DNA of 39,280 bases from an uncultured Bacilli bacterium (GCA_947624955.1 CANQMM010000008.1:1-39280), one strand, 5' to 3'. Positions 23,328-31,879 are shown, numbered from the stretch's first letter. The notes: generated by a model not told the origin, from the sequence alone. Numbers and translations: made by a program.

Positions 23328-23741
23328 TTAATTTTTAGGTTTTTTAGTACCGTATTTACTACGTCCTTGTTTACGATTATTAACGCCTTGTGTATCAAGT
23401 GCTCCACGAATAATGTGATAACGAACACCGATTAAGTCTTTAACACGTCCACCACGTACTAATACAACACTATGTTCTTGTAAGTTATGTCCTTCACCTG
23501 GAATATAAGTATCTACTTCACGTCCATTACTTAATCTAACCCGCGCATATTTTCTTAATGCTGAGTTCGGTTTTTTTGGTGTACGAGTTGCAACTCTTGT
23601 ACAAACACCTCTCTTTTGTGGGCTAAATGTTTCAGTAGTCTTTCTTTCCATACTGTTATACCCGACATTTAAAACAGGGCTTTTACTCTTTCTAGTTTTT
23701 GCTTTTCTGTTTTTTCTTACTAACTGATTAATTGTTGGCAT
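23328..23741 (-). CDS. rpsL: 30S ribosomal protein S12
   Basis: The 137-residue product matches S12: [75 protein letters not shown] and the basic end. First gene of the str operon. One unusual position is Tyr after [11 protein letters not shown] where Val is common. AGGAGGA precedes the ATG, and a structured leader lies upstream. Confidence 0.99.
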
Positions 23742-23836: not shown

Positions 23837-23866
23837 AATATATCATTAAACTATATGATAAGTCAA
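23837..23866 (-). promoter_or_regulatory. promoter of the str operon
   Basis: TTGACT (23861-23866), 18-base spacer ending in TGA, TATATT (23837-23842) on the minus strand, giving both -35 and extended -10 elements. It starts 10 bases downstream of the accessory gene 23876-24697. Confidence 0.8.
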
Positions 23867-23875
23867 GTAAAATAA

Positions 23876-24697
23876 TTATTGTTTTGCCATAACTGGTGGA
23901 TTTTTCGCTAAGAAAGCTAATTTAAGACTTAAAGTTTCCATTTCTTGGGCATATTCACTAGCTTTTTCATAACTAATTTCTCCATTTTGAATATCTTTTA
24001 AGACATCTTTTCTCAGCAAATTAATAAGTATATCTAACGTTTTATGTCTATCAGCATAATTCACTAAACTTACAACAGATCCCGTAAAATTTAGACTATC
24101 ATAAGATAAAACTTGTCTTTTTACCTTGCGTTTTCCTACGTTTTTTATAAACTTAGGATCATAAATACTTTCTTGAATTTCCCCATCATAATAAGCATAA
24201 ACTTTAACTGTCTTATAATACTTTTTTTGTAAAGCATACCGTACTACCAGACTAATAAAATATTTTGCTACTGAATCATTTTTATCAAAGATTATTTCCG
24301 GTCCATTGCATAAACATTTAGGAGCAGTAGTTGAATGTGACTTAGTATATTGTTTTAAACAAACTGAGCATTTAGTTTGTGCCTCATCATTGCATTTTCC
24401 TATATAAATTTGCGAAATCCATTCATTAAATGGATCATTACTAGCAATCGTAGAAAAACTCTCACAACATTGTCTAAAATAATCAAAGACAACATCAACT
24501 TTTTCCAATATTTCTTCGGCCTTTTCTAAAGGCACCGTTTCAGGATGACGCTCTACGTTTATAGAACTTGGAGCTTCATAAACCCGTTCCTCTTGCCCAT
24601 TATTAGTTGCTACCTTAACTCTTTCGCATTCATCTAAAGATATTTCAATATTACTCCCAATAATTTCTATTTCTTTATCATCATACTTAACCTTCAT
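23876..24697 (-). CDS. unrecognised Cys-containing family, paralogue 3
   Basis: The 273-residue product is not recognised. It shares with the two upstream genes a strand-rich N-terminus (MKVKYDDKEIEII), then FDYFRQCCESF (about 70-80), ISQIYIGKC, KCSVCLKQY, CNGPEIIFD (about 131-139), AKYFISLVVRYALQKKYYKT and a basic stretch before VLSYDS, followed by helices. Cysteines in the shared positions (CC pair, later single Cys) are kept. It has more Cys than its paralogues (KCSVC, KCLC), which could bind metal. No signal peptide or membrane segment. No terminator is seen before the str promoter. Confidence 0.65.
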   Translation of the reverse strand: MKVKYDDKEIEIIGSNIEISLDECERVKVATNNGQEERVYEAPSSINVERHPETVPLEKAEEILEKVDVVFDYFRQCCESFSTIASNDPFNEWISQIYIGKCNDEAQTKCSVCLKQYTKSHSTTAPKCLCNGPEIIFDKNDSVAKYFISLVVRYALQKKYYKTVKVYAYYDGEIQESIYDPKFIKNVGKRKVKRQVLSYDSLNFTGSVVSLVNYADRHKTLDILINLLRKDVLKDIQNGEISYEKASEYAQEMETLSLKLAFLAKNPPVMAKQ

Positions 24698-24744
24698 AAA
24701 AATCCCCCATTTATTAAAGAATTATTTATTATAATTTTAATTAC

Positions 24745-25542
24745 TTAATTTTGTGGTTTATCAAAATGTAATTGTAATTTTGCTACTGCTGCTTCCATAT
24801 TCACCGCACATTTATCAGCTTGTAGATAAGACATCGTCCCATTTTGAATTGCTCTAAAAGCTTGGGTTTCCATATATTGCATATAAATATCACTAGCTTT
24901 CCCCTTAATTTGTGAATGTAGCGTACTTAATATATCATAAACATAGCAACCATTCTCATAAGCTAAAACTTTCGATTTAGGCATTACTGAACTCATACTT
25001 CTTGTAAATTTACCATCAAAGAGCTCTTCTCTTTCCTTACAATAATAACTAAATACACTGCTAGTTTCATAATATTTTTTTCGCATCGCATAAAGTCCTA
25101 CTAAACTAAGGAAATATCTACTTATAGCAGTTTCCCTATCGAAAATTATTTCTGGACCTTCACATACCACCTTACTTTTCTTAGGTTCTATATATTCCTT
25201 AAGATTTACCGAGCATTTAACCACTCCGCCCTCTTTACAAGTACCCATATATATTTGTATAAATTGTTTCTTATCGTTTCCTATTCTTTTTTCAAATACT
25301 TCACAACACCGTTTAAAATACTCAAAAGCTTCTTGAACCTTTTTCAAAATATCGTGAGCATCATTTACAGAAACAGATCCCCATTTCTGGTCAACCTTTA
25401 AGGTATTTAATTTTTGCACATCATTATAGACAAATACCCCCGGACGTCCAGCTATCTCTGGATTTTCAGGTGATGTAATATTTGCACCCTCACCAACATC
25501 TAAAACAATTTCTACCAAATTGCCATTATATTTTATATTCAT
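24745..25542 (-). CDS. unrecognised Cys-containing family, paralogue 2
   Basis: The 265-residue product is a diverged copy of its neighbours: MNIKYNGNLVEIVLDVGEG at the start, FEYFKRCCEVFE, IQIYMGTC, KCSVNLKEY, VVCEGPEIIFDRETAISRYF, YAMRKKYYET and SKVLAYENG. Predicted soluble and intracellular. AGGAGG lies 9 bases before the ATG, with 16 bases to the upstream paralogue, so they are co-transcribed. Function unknown. Confidence 0.65.
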   Translation of the reverse strand: MNIKYNGNLVEIVLDVGEGANITSPENPEIAGRPGVFVYNDVQKLNTLKVDQKWGSVSVNDAHDILKKVQEAFEYFKRCCEVFEKRIGNDKKQFIQIYMGTCKEGGVVKCSVNLKEYIEPKKSKVVCEGPEIIFDRETAISRYFLSLVGLYAMRKKYYETSSVFSYYCKEREELFDGKFTRSMSSVMPKSKVLAYENGCYVYDILSTLHSQIKGKASDIYMQYMETQAFRAIQNGTMSYLQADKCAVNMEAAVAKLQLHFDKPQN

Positions 25543-25558
25543 TCTTCATTTCCTCCTC

Positions 25559-26377
25559 TTATTTTTGCGTAGAAGCATTTAGTAGTAAAGCTAATTTTGG
25601 TATTAACTCCTGTACTTTTTTTGCACAACTATCCATCGTTAAATCTTTATTGGCATAGCCATCAAAACTCATTGTATGAATAGCACCCTCTCTTATTCCC
25701 GTTATAATTGATTCATCATAGCCACCTTTAATTGCTCGAGATAGCAAATCAAATAATTCAGATAACATACCACTTGAACTTTCATAAACTAATACTTTTC
25801 TTTCGGCTCTTCGACGACCCAATCTTTCTAAAAATTTATCATCAAATATTTTTAAAGTATTTTGCGGCTCAGCATTTTCATAAAAATCGTCAGTTTTAAA
25901 ATAACCTTTTTTAAGAGCAAACCGGATAATTAGAGCAATAAAATATCTTGTTACTACATCATTATTGGGCAAAATTATTTCTGGTCCTTCACAAAGATGA
26001 GTAGTAGTTATACCCTTTGGTCCCGTTTTCTGATAATCATATTTTTCTAATCTAATCTGACAAACAATATTTTTAAAATCAGCTTGTCTAAATAAATTTA
26101 TTTGTAAGGTACGTCCCGGATTTTCACCTCGTTTACCCAAGGCCTGTTCAAATGCTTCACAACATTTTTTAAAATATTCAAACGCTCCATCTACTTGACT
26201 CAAAGCTTGCTCTGCTTTCATTTGTTTCCAATCAACATCGCTAAAAGCTTGCAAATTATTTAAATTATTGCAAACAATCATTTCACTCTTAGACCCATCT
26301 TCCTTGCCGACTGTTAAAGTTTCTCCTTCATCTAATTCAATTTTAGCAATTACTTCACCATTATATTTAATTTTCAT
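25559..26377 (-). CDS. unrecognised Cys-containing family, paralogue 1
   Basis: The 272-residue product is the first of the triplet. Shared blocks are MKIKYNGEVIAKIELDEGE, FEYFKKCCEAFE, LQINLF, CQIRLEKY, LCEGPEIILPNNDVVTRYF, RFALKKGYFKT and RKVLVYESS. The invariant core across all three is F-x-YF-xx-CCExF, then GPEII, then a (R/K)YF-x(4)-L helix. Cytoplasmic by absence of export signals. AGGAGGAAAG precedes the ATG, 11 bases after the pilin-like gene. Function unknown. Confidence 0.65.
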   Translation of the reverse strand: MKIKYNGEVIAKIELDEGETLTVGKEDGSKSEMIVCNNLNNLQAFSDVDWKQMKAEQALSQVDGAFEYFKKCCEAFEQALGKRGENPGRTLQINLFRQADFKNIVCQIRLEKYDYQKTGPKGITTTHLCEGPEIILPNNDVVTRYFIALIIRFALKKGYFKTDDFYENAEPQNTLKIFDDKFLERLGRRRAERKVLVYESSSGMLSELFDLLSRAIKGGYDESIITGIREGAIHTMSFDGYANKDLTMDSCAKKVQELIPKLALLLNASTQK

Positions 26378-26388
26378 AAACTTTCCTC

Positions 26389-26739
26389 CTAACTTTTATA
26401 ACCCTTAGTTACATATTTATTACATTTAATATATGGTTCATATCTAAATGTTAACCCTTTTTTATATATTTCGACATAACCGTCACATTCGTCATCATTA
26501 ACTTTTAACTCTTCTATTACCTTAGCTTCTTGTAATTCCTCTAAAGTAACTTTAACTTTTTCATTATCGCCAATCGTAGCAGCATCCCGGTATTTAGCCG
26601 CCCCATCACTTAATTTATCTTCTAGTCTTTTGTAAACTCCGGTATTATTTTTCCAAATAATGCCCGCAATCGTTAAAGCTCCGACCAACACTACTAATAA
26701 TAAACCCCAAATAATTTTTAATCTTCGCATTTTTTCCAT
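26389..26739 (-). CDS. pilin-like membrane protein with CDGY motif
   Basis: The 116-residue product has one N-terminal membrane helix (about 9-28) and an external domain ending CDGYVEIYKKG-(x)n-YIKCNKYVTKGY, the same ending as its upstream neighbour. It lacks a clear prepilin cleavage site, unlike that neighbour. The ATG overlaps the TGA stop of the upstream gene (TGATG), so the two are translationally coupled and probably act together. The two Cys are likely disulfide-bonded. Confidence 0.7.
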   Translation of the reverse strand: MEKMRRLKIIWGLLLVVLVGALTIAGIIWKNNTGVYKRLEDKLSDGAAKYRDAATIGDNEKVKVTLEELQEAKVIEELKVNDDECDGYVEIYKKGLTFRYEPYIKCNKYVTKGYKS

Positions 26740-27218
26740 CAGCCGACATACCCTTCAGTTTTATAATTATCACATTTAATATAACCATCGATAGTAGCTA
26801 TGCTATTTTCCACAAAAATTCTTGCATATCCATCACAAGGATTTCCACTTATTTGGTCTTTAATTTCTTGAACATAACCTTTATCGGCTAACTCTCCAAG
26901 ATAGATATTTACTCCTCCTAAGGATTCATCAGTCATATTTTCTAGCCAATAGTTTCTCCCTGCTGTCTCCAGTTTCTTCTCTAAGTTCAAATAATATATT
27001 AAATCAATTTCTTCTTCTGGTTCTGGATTAGAGACTGATGGTTCAGATTGTCCTGGTTGTTGAACTGGTACATCATCTTCTTTATCATTTGTAAAATCTT
27101 CATCCATCCGGTTATACATTTTTAAAACTAAAAAAACTGATACTAATAAAAATAATAACAATACGGAAGATAATATCAGCATCTCACGTAAACCCCAACC
27201 ATGATTATTTAATTTCAT
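26739..27218 (-). CDS. pseudopilin-like protein with CDGY motif
   Basis: The 159-residue product starts MKLNNHGWGLREMLILSSVLLL: G7 followed by WGLRE puts Glu at +5 and then a hydrophobic helix, as in class III prepilins, though +1 is Trp. A Pro/Glu/Asp-rich linker (about 45-75) follows, then a globular domain ending in NPCDGYARIFVENS and YIKCDNYKTEGY. Two conserved Cys suggest a disulfide. The gene opens the accessory block after rplL and has an extended -10 promoter. Possibly a component of a type IV pilus- or T2SS-like filament; partners are not in the window. Confidence 0.72.
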   Translation of the reverse strand: MKLNNHGWGLREMLILSSVLLLFLLVSVFLVLKMYNRMDEDFTNDKEDDVPVQQPGQSEPSVSNPEPEEEIDLIYYLNLEKKLETAGRNYWLENMTDESLGGVNIYLGELADKGYVQEIKDQISGNPCDGYARIFVENSIATIDGYIKCDNYKTEGYVG

Positions 27219-27244: not shown

Positions 27245-27272
27245 CAAAAAAAGATAGTTTTCACTATCTTTT
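27245..27272 (-). terminator. terminator after rplL
   Basis: AAAGATAGT-GAAA-ACTATCTTT followed by a T run on the minus strand; a GNRA-type loop. It ends the rplJ-rplL transcript before any rpoB gene. Confidence 0.95.
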
Positions 27273-27281
27273 CCAAATTAA

Positions 27282-27656
27282 CTAAGCTAATTCTACAGTA
27301 GCTCCAGCTTCTTCTAATTGTGCTTTAATTTGGTTAGCTTCATCAGCAGGAATATTTTCTTTAACATTTCCACCGTTATCAGCTAAGGCTTTAGCTTCAA
27401 CAAGTCCTAAACCAGTAATTTCTTTAAGGATTTTGATAACACCAATCTTAGCGCCGCCAGCATCTTTTAAAACTACAGTTTTCGTAGAACTTCCAGCGTC
27501 TTCGACAGCTCCAGCACTAGCAGGAGCAGCAGCTACAGCTACCGCACTTGGATCTACTCCAAATTCCTCTTTCATTGCATCAACTAATTCTTTAACTTCA
27601 AGAATAGTCATTTCTTTTAAAGCACTAATAAAATCTTCCTTTGTTAATTTTGCCAT
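27282..27656 (-). CDS. rplL: 50S ribosomal protein L7/L12
   Basis: The 124-residue product has an N-terminal dimerisation helix pair, an Ala-rich hinge (VAVAAAPASAGA) and the C-terminal domain with GAKIGVIKILKEITGLGLVEAKAL. Stalk protein that recruits translation GTPases. A terminator follows 10 bases after the stop. Confidence 0.99.
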   Translation of the reverse strand: MAKLTKEDFISALKEMTILEVKELVDAMKEEFGVDPSAVAVAAAPASAGAVEDAGSSTKTVVLKDAGGAKIGVIKILKEITGLGLVEAKALADNGGNVKENIPADEANQIKAQLEEAGATVELA

Positions 27657-28169: not shown

Positions 28170-28294
28170 TCCTCCCTTTATATTTTATTAAAAAAGCTTT
28201 TCCCACGGAAAAGCTCTAGCATTTATACTAAAAGTTTTTCCTCGGTAGGATTTATCTTTGTACCTACTTTCTTCGGAGATTTGCTTCTTTAAAC
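28170..28294 (-). promoter_or_regulatory. ribosomal protein L10 leader with attenuator
   Basis: About 130 nt between promoter and rplJ hold the L10-leader pattern (AATCTCCGAAGAAAGTAGGT then AAGATAAATCCTACCGAGG on the minus strand). It ends in a perfect attenuator hairpin GCTTTTCC-GTG-GGAAAAGC (28196-28214) with a T run. In Firmicutes, excess L10 or L10(L12)4 binds such leaders and promotes early termination. Confidence 0.9.
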
Positions 28295-29760: not shown

Positions 29761-29789
29761 ATAATATCACAGATTACTTTATTAATCAA
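29761..29789 (-). promoter_or_regulatory. promoter of rplK-rplA
   Basis: TTGATT (29784-29789), 17-base spacer ending in TGA, TATTAT (29761-29766) on the minus strand. The -35 includes the TGA stop of the upstream accessory gene. Confidence 0.75.
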
Positions 29790-30424
29790 GCATTTTCCTC
29801 ATTCTTATATTTCTTATAATCATCCCATTGTTTTTTCATTTGCAACTTTATTTCGCCATATATATCTCTTTTATCCGAGGCAACCTTTTCCCCACCTAAA
29901 ACCCAACTAACTTGGACATAGCGTTCATCAAGAAAAGTCAAATCTCCTCCCATAGATACTAATACTCCACAAGTTCCCATATAAAGAACCACACATTCAT
30001 TATATTCATTAATCCCATAAATATCATGAAAAGGAGGATTTTCAATATGACCTTCCTCACCATAAAATTCCGCTTCTCTAATAAAATCTTCTAATAAGAC
30101 ATAATCATCGATTAACTTTTCTAAAGATACCTTAATCATTTCCCTTAATTCCGGCCGACTGATATTTACTAAATAAAATTCCCCATTCCTAATTCGTAGT
30201 TCATAGATATTATCACTATTTTCATAATCTAATCCTTTATATAATCCCGAATTATTATAACTTTCTGCTATTTCTTTATATACTTGAAAGATATCTTTTT
30301 CCATCCCATCGAGGTCCGTAAGAAAATCTTCGAACTCTTGCTCTAAAGCCGTTCTTTTTTCTTCATTCGGCGGATAAAACTTTTTCCTAAAATATATTTG
30401 TCCATTAAATGCTATATGTTCCAT
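29786..30424 (-). CDS. unknown acidic protein, last gene of accessory operon
   Basis: The 212-residue product is not recognised. It starts MEHIAFNGQIYFRKKFYPP, has a helical, acidic middle (about 20-130) and a strand-rich end (CVVLYMGTCGVLVSMGG, YVQVSWVLGGE), finishing in a basic helix. No signal peptide or membrane helix. Its ATG lies inside the last codons of the HNH-like gene (20-base overlap), with GAAGG upstream, so the two are coupled. It may act with that protein; this rests on position only. Confidence 0.65.
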   Translation of the reverse strand: MEHIAFNGQIYFRKKFYPPNEEKRTALEQEFEDFLTDLDGMEKDIFQVYKEIAESYNNSGLYKGLDYENSDNIYELRIRNGEFYLVNISRPELREMIKVSLEKLIDDYVLLEDFIREAEFYGEEGHIENPPFHDIYGINEYNECVVLYMGTCGVLVSMGGDLTFLDERYVQVSWVLGGEKVASDKRDIYGEIKLQMKKQWDDYKKYKNEENA

Positions 30425-30797
30425 TATTTACCTTCTTTAATCTTACCATTTCCCGGTAAGCGCCATATCTAAAGTCTAAAGTTCTTTTCTTTAAACTCGC
30501 TATCCATTCTTGCATTTCTTCCGTTGGGGGTTTATTAGAAGCATTAATTATCCCAAATAGTAAGTTCCACTCCTCATATAATTCCGGTTTATATACCTCT
30601 AATAAATTTAAAAGCTTATGTCCCTTCTTCGTAACTAATGCCCCATTTTCTTTGGTCAATGGTCCACCATTTCTTCTTCTCGTAATATGATGATAAGTCA
30701 AAATATTCCCATTAGTAATTGGAAAGCCCATCCAATCAACTTCAACCGTATTATAAATACTTATCATTTGTTCAATTAATATTCTACTACCTGTCAT
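30405..30797 (-). CDS. HNH-like nuclease-fold protein
   Basis: The 130-residue product has an HNH-type motif: YHHITRRRNGG (H36-H37), then ENGALV (N51) and KKGHKLLN (H60). Spacing H-x(13)-N-x(8)-H fits a beta-beta-alpha metal site, and NGAL with a following His is common in HNH proteins. The rest is helical and basic. No Cys, so there is no structural zinc site of the CxxC type. It could be a nuclease or a domain-only relative. GGGGG precedes the ATG, 23 bases after the transglutaminase-like gene. Confidence 0.65.
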   Translation of the reverse strand: MTGSRILIEQMISIYNTVEVDWMGFPITNGNILTYHHITRRRNGGPLTKENGALVTKKGHKLLNLLEVYKPELYEEWNLLFGIINASNKPPTEEMQEWIASLKKRTLDFRYGAYREMVRLKKVNNGTYSI

Positions 30798-30820
30798 AAA
30801 CTACCCCCATAATTAACTAT

Positions 30821-31858
30821 TTAAGATGCCATTTTTATTGATGGCTCTTCCGGATACTCAAAATCTACTCCTAAGCTTCTTAAATAATCTATTTCTTCGG
30901 CAATCCTATCGCGATCATAATCTATATTACTGATATCATAACTCTCATAAGTATTAGCATAATCCCTAGCAATTGTCCTACTTCTTCCAACTAGAAAGTA
31001 TCTCTTTTCCCAACACCGGTTTTTCAAAAAATAATCATAATTAGTATAACTTCGTGTAATACTGCGAGAGTTATCCATATAATAACCCTTACCAGCAATT
31101 TTTACATAATTCCAAGCATGTTCCAAATTCCCTGCTCTTCTTACATCTACTTTCAATATTGGATTATTTAGTAGTAAAACACTAGCACTAGCTATGGCTA
31201 CACATAAACCATATCCTTTTAATAACACACTTTCCACATATCCTAATTGCTGTAATTCCTCTTCACCTAGTTCATTACTAAAAATTCTACCATCTACTGT
31301 CTTAGTGACATTTCCATCAACATATTGTGTATATCTTTGCAAATAATTACTAACTATTAGAGTTTTTTCTAAATCACTTAAATTAGGTATTGTCGCAATT
31401 AAACTGCTAACTCTTTGGGATTCCACTAATGCCGCCTGACTTACCTTTTCACCTTCATTAGCATACCTAGCTCCTAAAATAGCACTACCGCTTTGAAATA
31501 CTGAACCATATACCCAAAAATCTTTCTTACTAGGAATATTCCACATTACATAATTAAAGGGTAAAAATAATCTAATATGTTGATATTTATCATAATCGAT
31601 ATAAGACCGATCTCTATTTAAGCCATCATCTAATAAGTAACCTTCGATATTTAATCCTAAACTATCTAAATAATCGATAACTTCGATATCTTCCGTACTA
31701 ATTTCCTTAGGTATTAAACCACTTTTAATTAACTCATTAAAATCATTAATAAATTCTACTAAAGTTGCATAATCCTTAATATATAAACGTTCAGGTATAA
31801 TTCTATTTTTATTAAAAGCATATTCTAAAATACTACAATCTTTTTTGACTTTTTCCAT
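30821..31858 (-). CDS. transglutaminase-like cysteine protease-fold protein
   Basis: The 345-residue product has a transglutaminase-like core near its C-terminus: KGYGLCVAIASASVLLL (C219), GNLEHAWNYVKIAGKGYYMDNS (split: H247 in LEHAWNYV and D262 in YYMDNS). This Cys-His-Asp order is that of the superfamily that includes transglutaminases and related peptidases. The N-terminal 150 residues are helical and unrecognised. No signal peptide is seen, so it appears intracellular, unusual for the group. The ATG giving MEKVKKDCS follows GAGGTGG; a GTG in that site starts the longer frame. Confidence 0.75.
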   Translation of the reverse strand: MEKVKKDCSILEYAFNKNRIIPERLYIKDYATLVEFINDFNELIKSGLIPKEISTEDIEVIDYLDSLGLNIEGYLLDDGLNRDRSYIDYDKYQHIRLFLPFNYVMWNIPSKKDFWVYGSVFQSGSAILGARYANEGEKVSQAALVESQRVSSLIATIPNLSDLEKTLIVSNYLQRYTQYVDGNVTKTVDGRIFSNELGEEELQQLGYVESVLLKGYGLCVAIASASVLLLNNPILKVDVRRAGNLEHAWNYVKIAGKGYYMDNSRSITRSYTNYDYFLKNRCWEKRYFLVGRSRTIARDYANTYESYDISNIDYDRDRIAEEIDYLRSLGVDFEYPEEPSIKMAS

Positions 31859-31879
31859 AGAACCCACCTCATTAAAATT

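Follow-up and report, generated by a model that had tools for sequence, protein, structure and literature searches.

Accessory genes between rplL and rpsL in an uncultured gut Bacilli lineage whose rpoBC genes have left the ribosomal cluster

Few bacterial gene clusters are as well conserved as secE-rpoBC-str, yet 163 rearrangements and deletions have been inferred in it across 204 species (PMC8046335). The insertions described in that study comprise few genes and are then followed by disconnection: the rplL-rsmC junction was broken by an nrdHEF insertion in Lactobacillaceae, with full separation later in two of five species, and the rpoBC-str junction was broken by a tusDCB insertion in Gammaproteobacteria (PMC8046335). 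The locus described here resembles the published rearrangements in being broken at these same two junctions, but differs from them in that rsmC-rpoB-rpoC has left as a whole from between intact rplKAJL and str operons, that the interval retains a pilin pair and that the lineage belongs to uncultured Bacilli. The interval is mostly the product of ordinary genome rearrangement, another instance, in uncultured Bacilli, of the known reshuffling of this cluster; what the locus offers besides the rearrangement, a diverged pilin type and a lineage-restricted orphan family (hereafter FamC), are modest leads.

The genome under study (G000) is a 1.17-Mb draft of an uncultured gut Bacilli in 65 contigs, and the window, the whole stretch of 39,280 nucleotides that was analysed, is its contig C8. 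An earlier note on this DNA had described five tightly spaced minus-strand genes between rplL and rpsL, and all five open reading frames were recovered (27218-23876) together with the TGATG overlap and the 11- and 16-nt gaps. The features of the interval and its flanks are as follows.

27282..27656, minus strand: rplL, upstream flank
27245..27272, minus strand: terminator of rplL, stem-loop and U-run (folding energy, congener comparison)
26739..27218, minus strand: orf1, type IV pilin-like protein, 159 aa (open reading frame, alignment, hhalign, AF2)
26389..26739, minus strand: orf2, partner protein of orf1, 116 aa (open reading frame, alignment)
25559..26377, minus strand: FamC1, orphan family member, 272 aa (open reading frame, paralogue comparison)
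24745..25542, minus strand: FamC2, orphan family member, 265 aa (open reading frame, paralogue comparison)
23876..24697, minus strand: FamC3, orphan family member, 273 aa (open reading frame, orthologue in G002)
23837..23866, minus strand: putative rpsL promoter, TTGACT-18-TATATT (conservation in G001 and G002)
23328..23741, minus strand: rpsL, downstream flank, of the str operon rpsL-rpsG-fusA-tuf

The overlap joins orf1 to orf2, the 11-nt gap lies between orf2 and FamC1, and FamC1 and FamC2 are 16 nt apart, followed by 47 nt between FamC2 and FamC3. The FamC genes are probably co-transcribed with orf1 and orf2.

The RNA polymerase genes have indeed moved, as the note had suspected: the single rpoB found in G000 lies on contig C29, off the rplL-rpsL interval, in the order rsmC-like methyltransferase, rpoB, rpoC. 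We annotated the gene order around rplL, rpoB and rpsL in 37 genomes of the taxonomic family, including G000; these are draft assemblies, in which detachment was read from gene order on contigs and the distance and orientation of rpoBC relative to rplL are not measurable. Twenty of the 37 genomes keep rpoB at rplL, usually with rsmC between the two, while 13 have it detached and in 4 the gene or the contig is missing. The outgroups likewise retain rplL-(rsmC)-rpoB-rpoC. In a tree of concatenated ribosomal, elongation-factor and polymerase proteins, 11 of the 13 detached genomes formed, together with the congener G002 (rpoB not found, state unassigned), one clade of 12 genomes holding this genus with a local support of 1.0. 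Its sister G033 retains the rpoBC block, and the detachments in G016 and G019 are separate from this clade. The departure of rpoBC is therefore clade-wide and older than the genus: the ancestral order stands in the outgroups and an altered one in a subclade, with the missing genes elsewhere in the chromosome (C29, and likewise in relatives). Given that rsmC, rpoB and rpoC are still together in most detached genomes, the trio moved as a unit. A common new neighbourhood of the moved block was sought across the clade and was seen only between this genus and G025. A second, distant rpoB in the G022 assembly (G022:C14:18574-21597, 62%/46% identity) is probably contamination.

Many relatives have the order rplL-rsmC-rpoB-rpoC-pilin-rpsL. 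The pilin lies directly between rpoC and rpsL in G024 and G011 and is separated from rpoC by two genes in G003 and G004; the arrangement in G016 is rpoC-(3 genes)-pilin-(1 gene)-rpsL, and G006 and G014 keep pilin remnants just there, upstream of rpsL. Since genomes that retain rpoBC and carry a pilin at this place occur in each of the family's two main branches, the pilin at rpsL predates the departure of rpoBC. Among the relatives compared, the pilin is one gene in many genera and a pair in this clade. Pilin genes were also found away from rpsL in G035, G036, G013 and G033, showing that the pair also moves, and because orf1 and orf2 are still paired in the first three of these genomes, the pair is a unit independent of rpsL. 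Its independent return to rpsL may have occurred in some lineages. In Bacillus, we take ybxF/rplGB to be comparable as a small extra gene at the junction between rpoC and rpsL, with a protein that is presumably unrelated to the pilin pair.

Within the genus, the interval was compared in two congeners. G001 has rplL-orf1-orf2-rpsL, and no FamC gene was found anywhere in its draft, whereas G002, which is the public rabbit MAG Lapin-027__bin52, has orf1-orf2-FamC-rpsL on a contig that shares a 77-nt overlap with the one carrying rplL. The notion of a conserved operon of five genes was thus not upheld, with two of the genes present in G001 and three in G002, and the pilin pair alone is conserved. 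The rplL-pilin-rpsL layout recurs in the public MAGs L147-L151 from rabbit and rumen projects, and MAGs of neighbouring genera (L147-L152) carry rplL, pilin-type genes and rpsL, some of them with a membrane protein of ~90 aa before orf1. In other genera the same slot holds unrelated proteins, namely one of 357 aa in G025, proteins of 277 and 280 aa in L155 and L156, and a paralogue pair of 321 and 318 aa in L153 (L153:7138-9131). As the L153 pair is unrelated to FamC, paralogous orphan families have come to occupy the slot on more than one occasion. The ~90-aa membrane protein lies before the pilin pair in other genera (L149:3865-4140, L150:5636-5950, L151:5627-5950 and L168:3017-3295), has the conserved motifs DYFR, GxGYK and EFGPFFI and travels with the pair in G013; it is absent at this place in the window species.

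The strong terminator claimed for rplL was confirmed as a stem-loop with a U-run (-12.6 kcal/mol, z -3.65) having counterparts in both congeners: that of G002 is nearly identical, and G001 has at this position a stem of the same type but unrelated to it. A stem of one kind at one place despite the unrelated sequence in G001 fits a selected terminator. The TTGACT-18-TATATT sequence upstream of rpsL is likewise present in G001 and G002. A general promoter scan gave 31 sites against 29.6 in shuffled sequence, which is not above chance, so that the promoters of the interval were called by conservation and are given here as putative.

Type IV pilins and pseudopilins (PF07963, N_methyl) share with orf1 a basic leader ending in Gly, a hydrophobic N-terminal helix of ~25 aa, Glu5 and a C-terminal Cys pair in the soluble head. 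In orf1 the basic leader runs into HG|WGLRE and the hydrophobic helix, and the C-terminal part has C.GY...YIKC..Y.T.GY; in an alignment of 16 homologues, Glu5 is not retained in every sequence. The prepilin leader KLNNHG|WGLREMLILSSVLLLFLL was recognized by inspection and is also found in G001 and G002, and the G031 homologue has an intermediate leader, NNKGFGLPEVLL. Orf1 has no Pfam N_methyl match, but a profile of eleven orf1-type homologues was aligned by hhalign over the whole length with three PF07963-positive pilins from relatives (98%, E 2.6e-13, 120 columns). Judged by its sequence, orf1 is a remote relative of type IV pilins, from which it differs in that GWG(L/M) replaces GFTL(V/I), Glu5 is not universal, the protein falls below Pfam detection and its gene lies outside any pilus gene cluster. 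The AF2 model of orf1, of low confidence, has a long N-terminal helix and a C-terminal beta hairpin, and a fold search with this model returned no pilin among its matches. Orf2 consists of an N-terminal membrane anchor and a C-terminal domain with a Cys pair common to orf1, and is 54% identical in G001 and 70% in G002; its start, MEKMRRLKIIWGLLLVVLVG, has no cleavable GWG-type leader. The description of both proteins as pilin-like accordingly stands for orf1, on the profile comparison, but not for orf2, which shares the C-terminal domain only and lacks a prepilin leader.

Pilus machinery is encoded elsewhere in G000, with a prepilin peptidase (PF01478) and an adjoining two-domain platform protein (PF00482) on C6 and an ATPase (PF00437) of the PilB/GspE type on C50. 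Our best guess is that orf1 and orf2 form a minor-pilin or pseudopilin pair of this PilB-PilC-PilD machine. Most likely the prepilin peptidase would process orf1 as a minor pilin or pseudopilin and the PilB/PilC-type machine would assemble it into a pilus, with orf2 as its non-cleaved partner. Besides the PilB/PilC/PilD genes, this 1.2-Mb genome has two Tad-type gene clusters, L142:3754-9314 (G000:C6) and L145:3052-11048 (G000:C11).

The three larger genes proved to be paralogues of an unrecognized family, as the note had stated. FamC1-3 are ~270 aa long with pairwise identities of 31-36% and four invariant Cys residues, and no hydrophobic membrane segment was seen by inspection. Searches against Pfam, NCBIfam, PHROGs, PADLOC and, by sequence, the PDB returned noise-level matches at most, which places FamC in no described family. 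FamC was not found in phage, plasmid or viral-contig collections, nor outside the genus in GTDB contigs. It was present in 2 of 386 sampled genomes of the taxonomic family, and, in samples of 395 genomes from the class and 392 from the phylum, in none but G000 (G002 apparently not having been drawn). The copy numbers in G001, G002 and G000 are zero, one and three, respectively. The AF2 model was weak (pLDDT 63.5, pTM 0.65) and gave no Foldseek match at E <= 0.001; its fold matches were weak and scattered, several of them to RNase H-like proteins (TM about 0.2), and were not used as evidence.

FamC3 is the orthologue of the single G002 copy (72% identity, pN/pS 0.39). FamC1 and FamC2 each have much the same identity (31-36%) to FamC3 as to the G002 copy, which makes it look as if the duplications preceded the species split, in which case G002 would probably have lost two copies; alternatively, a recent duplication may have been followed by faster divergence. 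Between FamC3 (23876-24697) and its G002 counterpart, pS is 0.37, compared with about 0.6 for orf1 and orf2 and 0.48-0.70 for most non-ribosomal neighbours, a low value that could come from codon bias or from exchange between lineages. Because other genera hold unrelated proteins in this slot, we regard FamC as an accessory passenger; its members are most likely cytoplasmic accessory proteins that would share a transcript with the pilin pair, which could do without them.

We consider it highly probable that the interval is a layered remnant, in which an old pilin stood at rpsL, rsmC-rpoB-rpoC left as a unit and FamC was added within the genus. On this reading, a type IV pilin-type gene settled immediately upstream of rpsL early in the history of the family, with rpoBC still upstream of it, and the later exit of rsmC-rpoB-rpoC brought rplL up against the pilin genes. 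With the terminator of rplL and the separate rpsL promoter, the ribosomal operons would stay transcriptionally closed, which would allow the interval to tolerate accessory genes; different genera would then have filled it with different unrelated genes, and the ~270-aa FamC family would have been acquired in this genus and become three copies. The note had also offered displacement, in which insertion of the five-gene block would have driven rpoBC from the cluster. These genes do occupy the place expected for rpoBC, and published insertions in this cluster often go on to complete the separation of neighbours (PMC8046335), but relatives with rpoBC still behind rplL already have a pilin beside rpsL, rpoBC left before the genus arose, FamC is present in only two of the three genus members and G001 shows the rearrangement without it, all of which makes this displacement very improbable. 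FamC is excluded as the displacer since it postdates the clade-wide departure, and for the pilins displacement is unnecessary, with genomes outside the detached clade that have rpoC-pilin-rpsL arguing against it. In a weaker form, insertion of the old pilin may have made the rpoC-str junction easier to break, as the author of PMC8046335 proposes for other insertions. In a draft of 65 contigs, the junctions at 23876 and 27218 might be suspected of being artefacts of assembly or binning, but both recur in the two congeners, and the rplL-pilin-rpsL layout recurs in public MAGs from different projects; misassembly at these positions is thereby rejected, and we assign the artefact a negligible probability.

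Rivals to the passenger reading of FamC concern its function. The five genes might work together as a single system, in which a pilus-like apparatus would have three cytoplasmic FamC components of its own, as their 11- and 16-nt gaps, the position of FamC directly after orf2 in G002 with the same 11-nt gap and the purifying selection on FamC3 would suggest. Such a system is unlikely, given that FamC is missing from G001 and from every other searched genome that has the pilin, that the slot elsewhere holds unrelated proteins and that the 47 nt before FamC3 would permit a separate transcript. Rather less probable is that FamC was carried in by a mobile element or phage with the slot as its insertion site, for instance as a gene for defence or counter-defence; its patchy presence within the genus, the low pS of FamC3, if due to exchange between lineages, and the variable slot content among genera agree with this, but the phage, plasmid and viral-contig collections contain none, PADLOC gave no match and PHROGs only noise, no integrase or transposase gene was identified in the interval and the GC content is like that of the neighbours. 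We give still less credence to the speculation that FamC proteins are genus-restricted, Cys-containing cytoplasmic partners of the diverged pilin pair in a small surface or uptake module, their three diverged copies having been placed between two highly expressed operons for expression or copy number. The locus provides a datable case, from an uncultured gut lineage, in which the core RNA polymerase operon moved out of the ribosomal cluster, with intermediates that show an extra gene at the rpoC-str junction before the break, and it cautions that a gene found where rpoBC should be need not have displaced rpoBC.

Accessory genes without a Pfam match were also found at the nusG-rplK junction of the same cluster (29786-31867). 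Two of them (29786-30424 and 30405-30797) are a fast-evolving pair with 42-61% identity in G001 and G002, and the third (30821-31867), absent there in both congeners, has Cys/His motifs that by eye resemble those of transglutaminases. The contig begins within a 16S rRNA gene (RF00177, 1-208, minus strand), a typical assembly break, and an Rfam L10_leader (RF00557) was detected above the gathering score at 28181-28294, upstream of rplJ.
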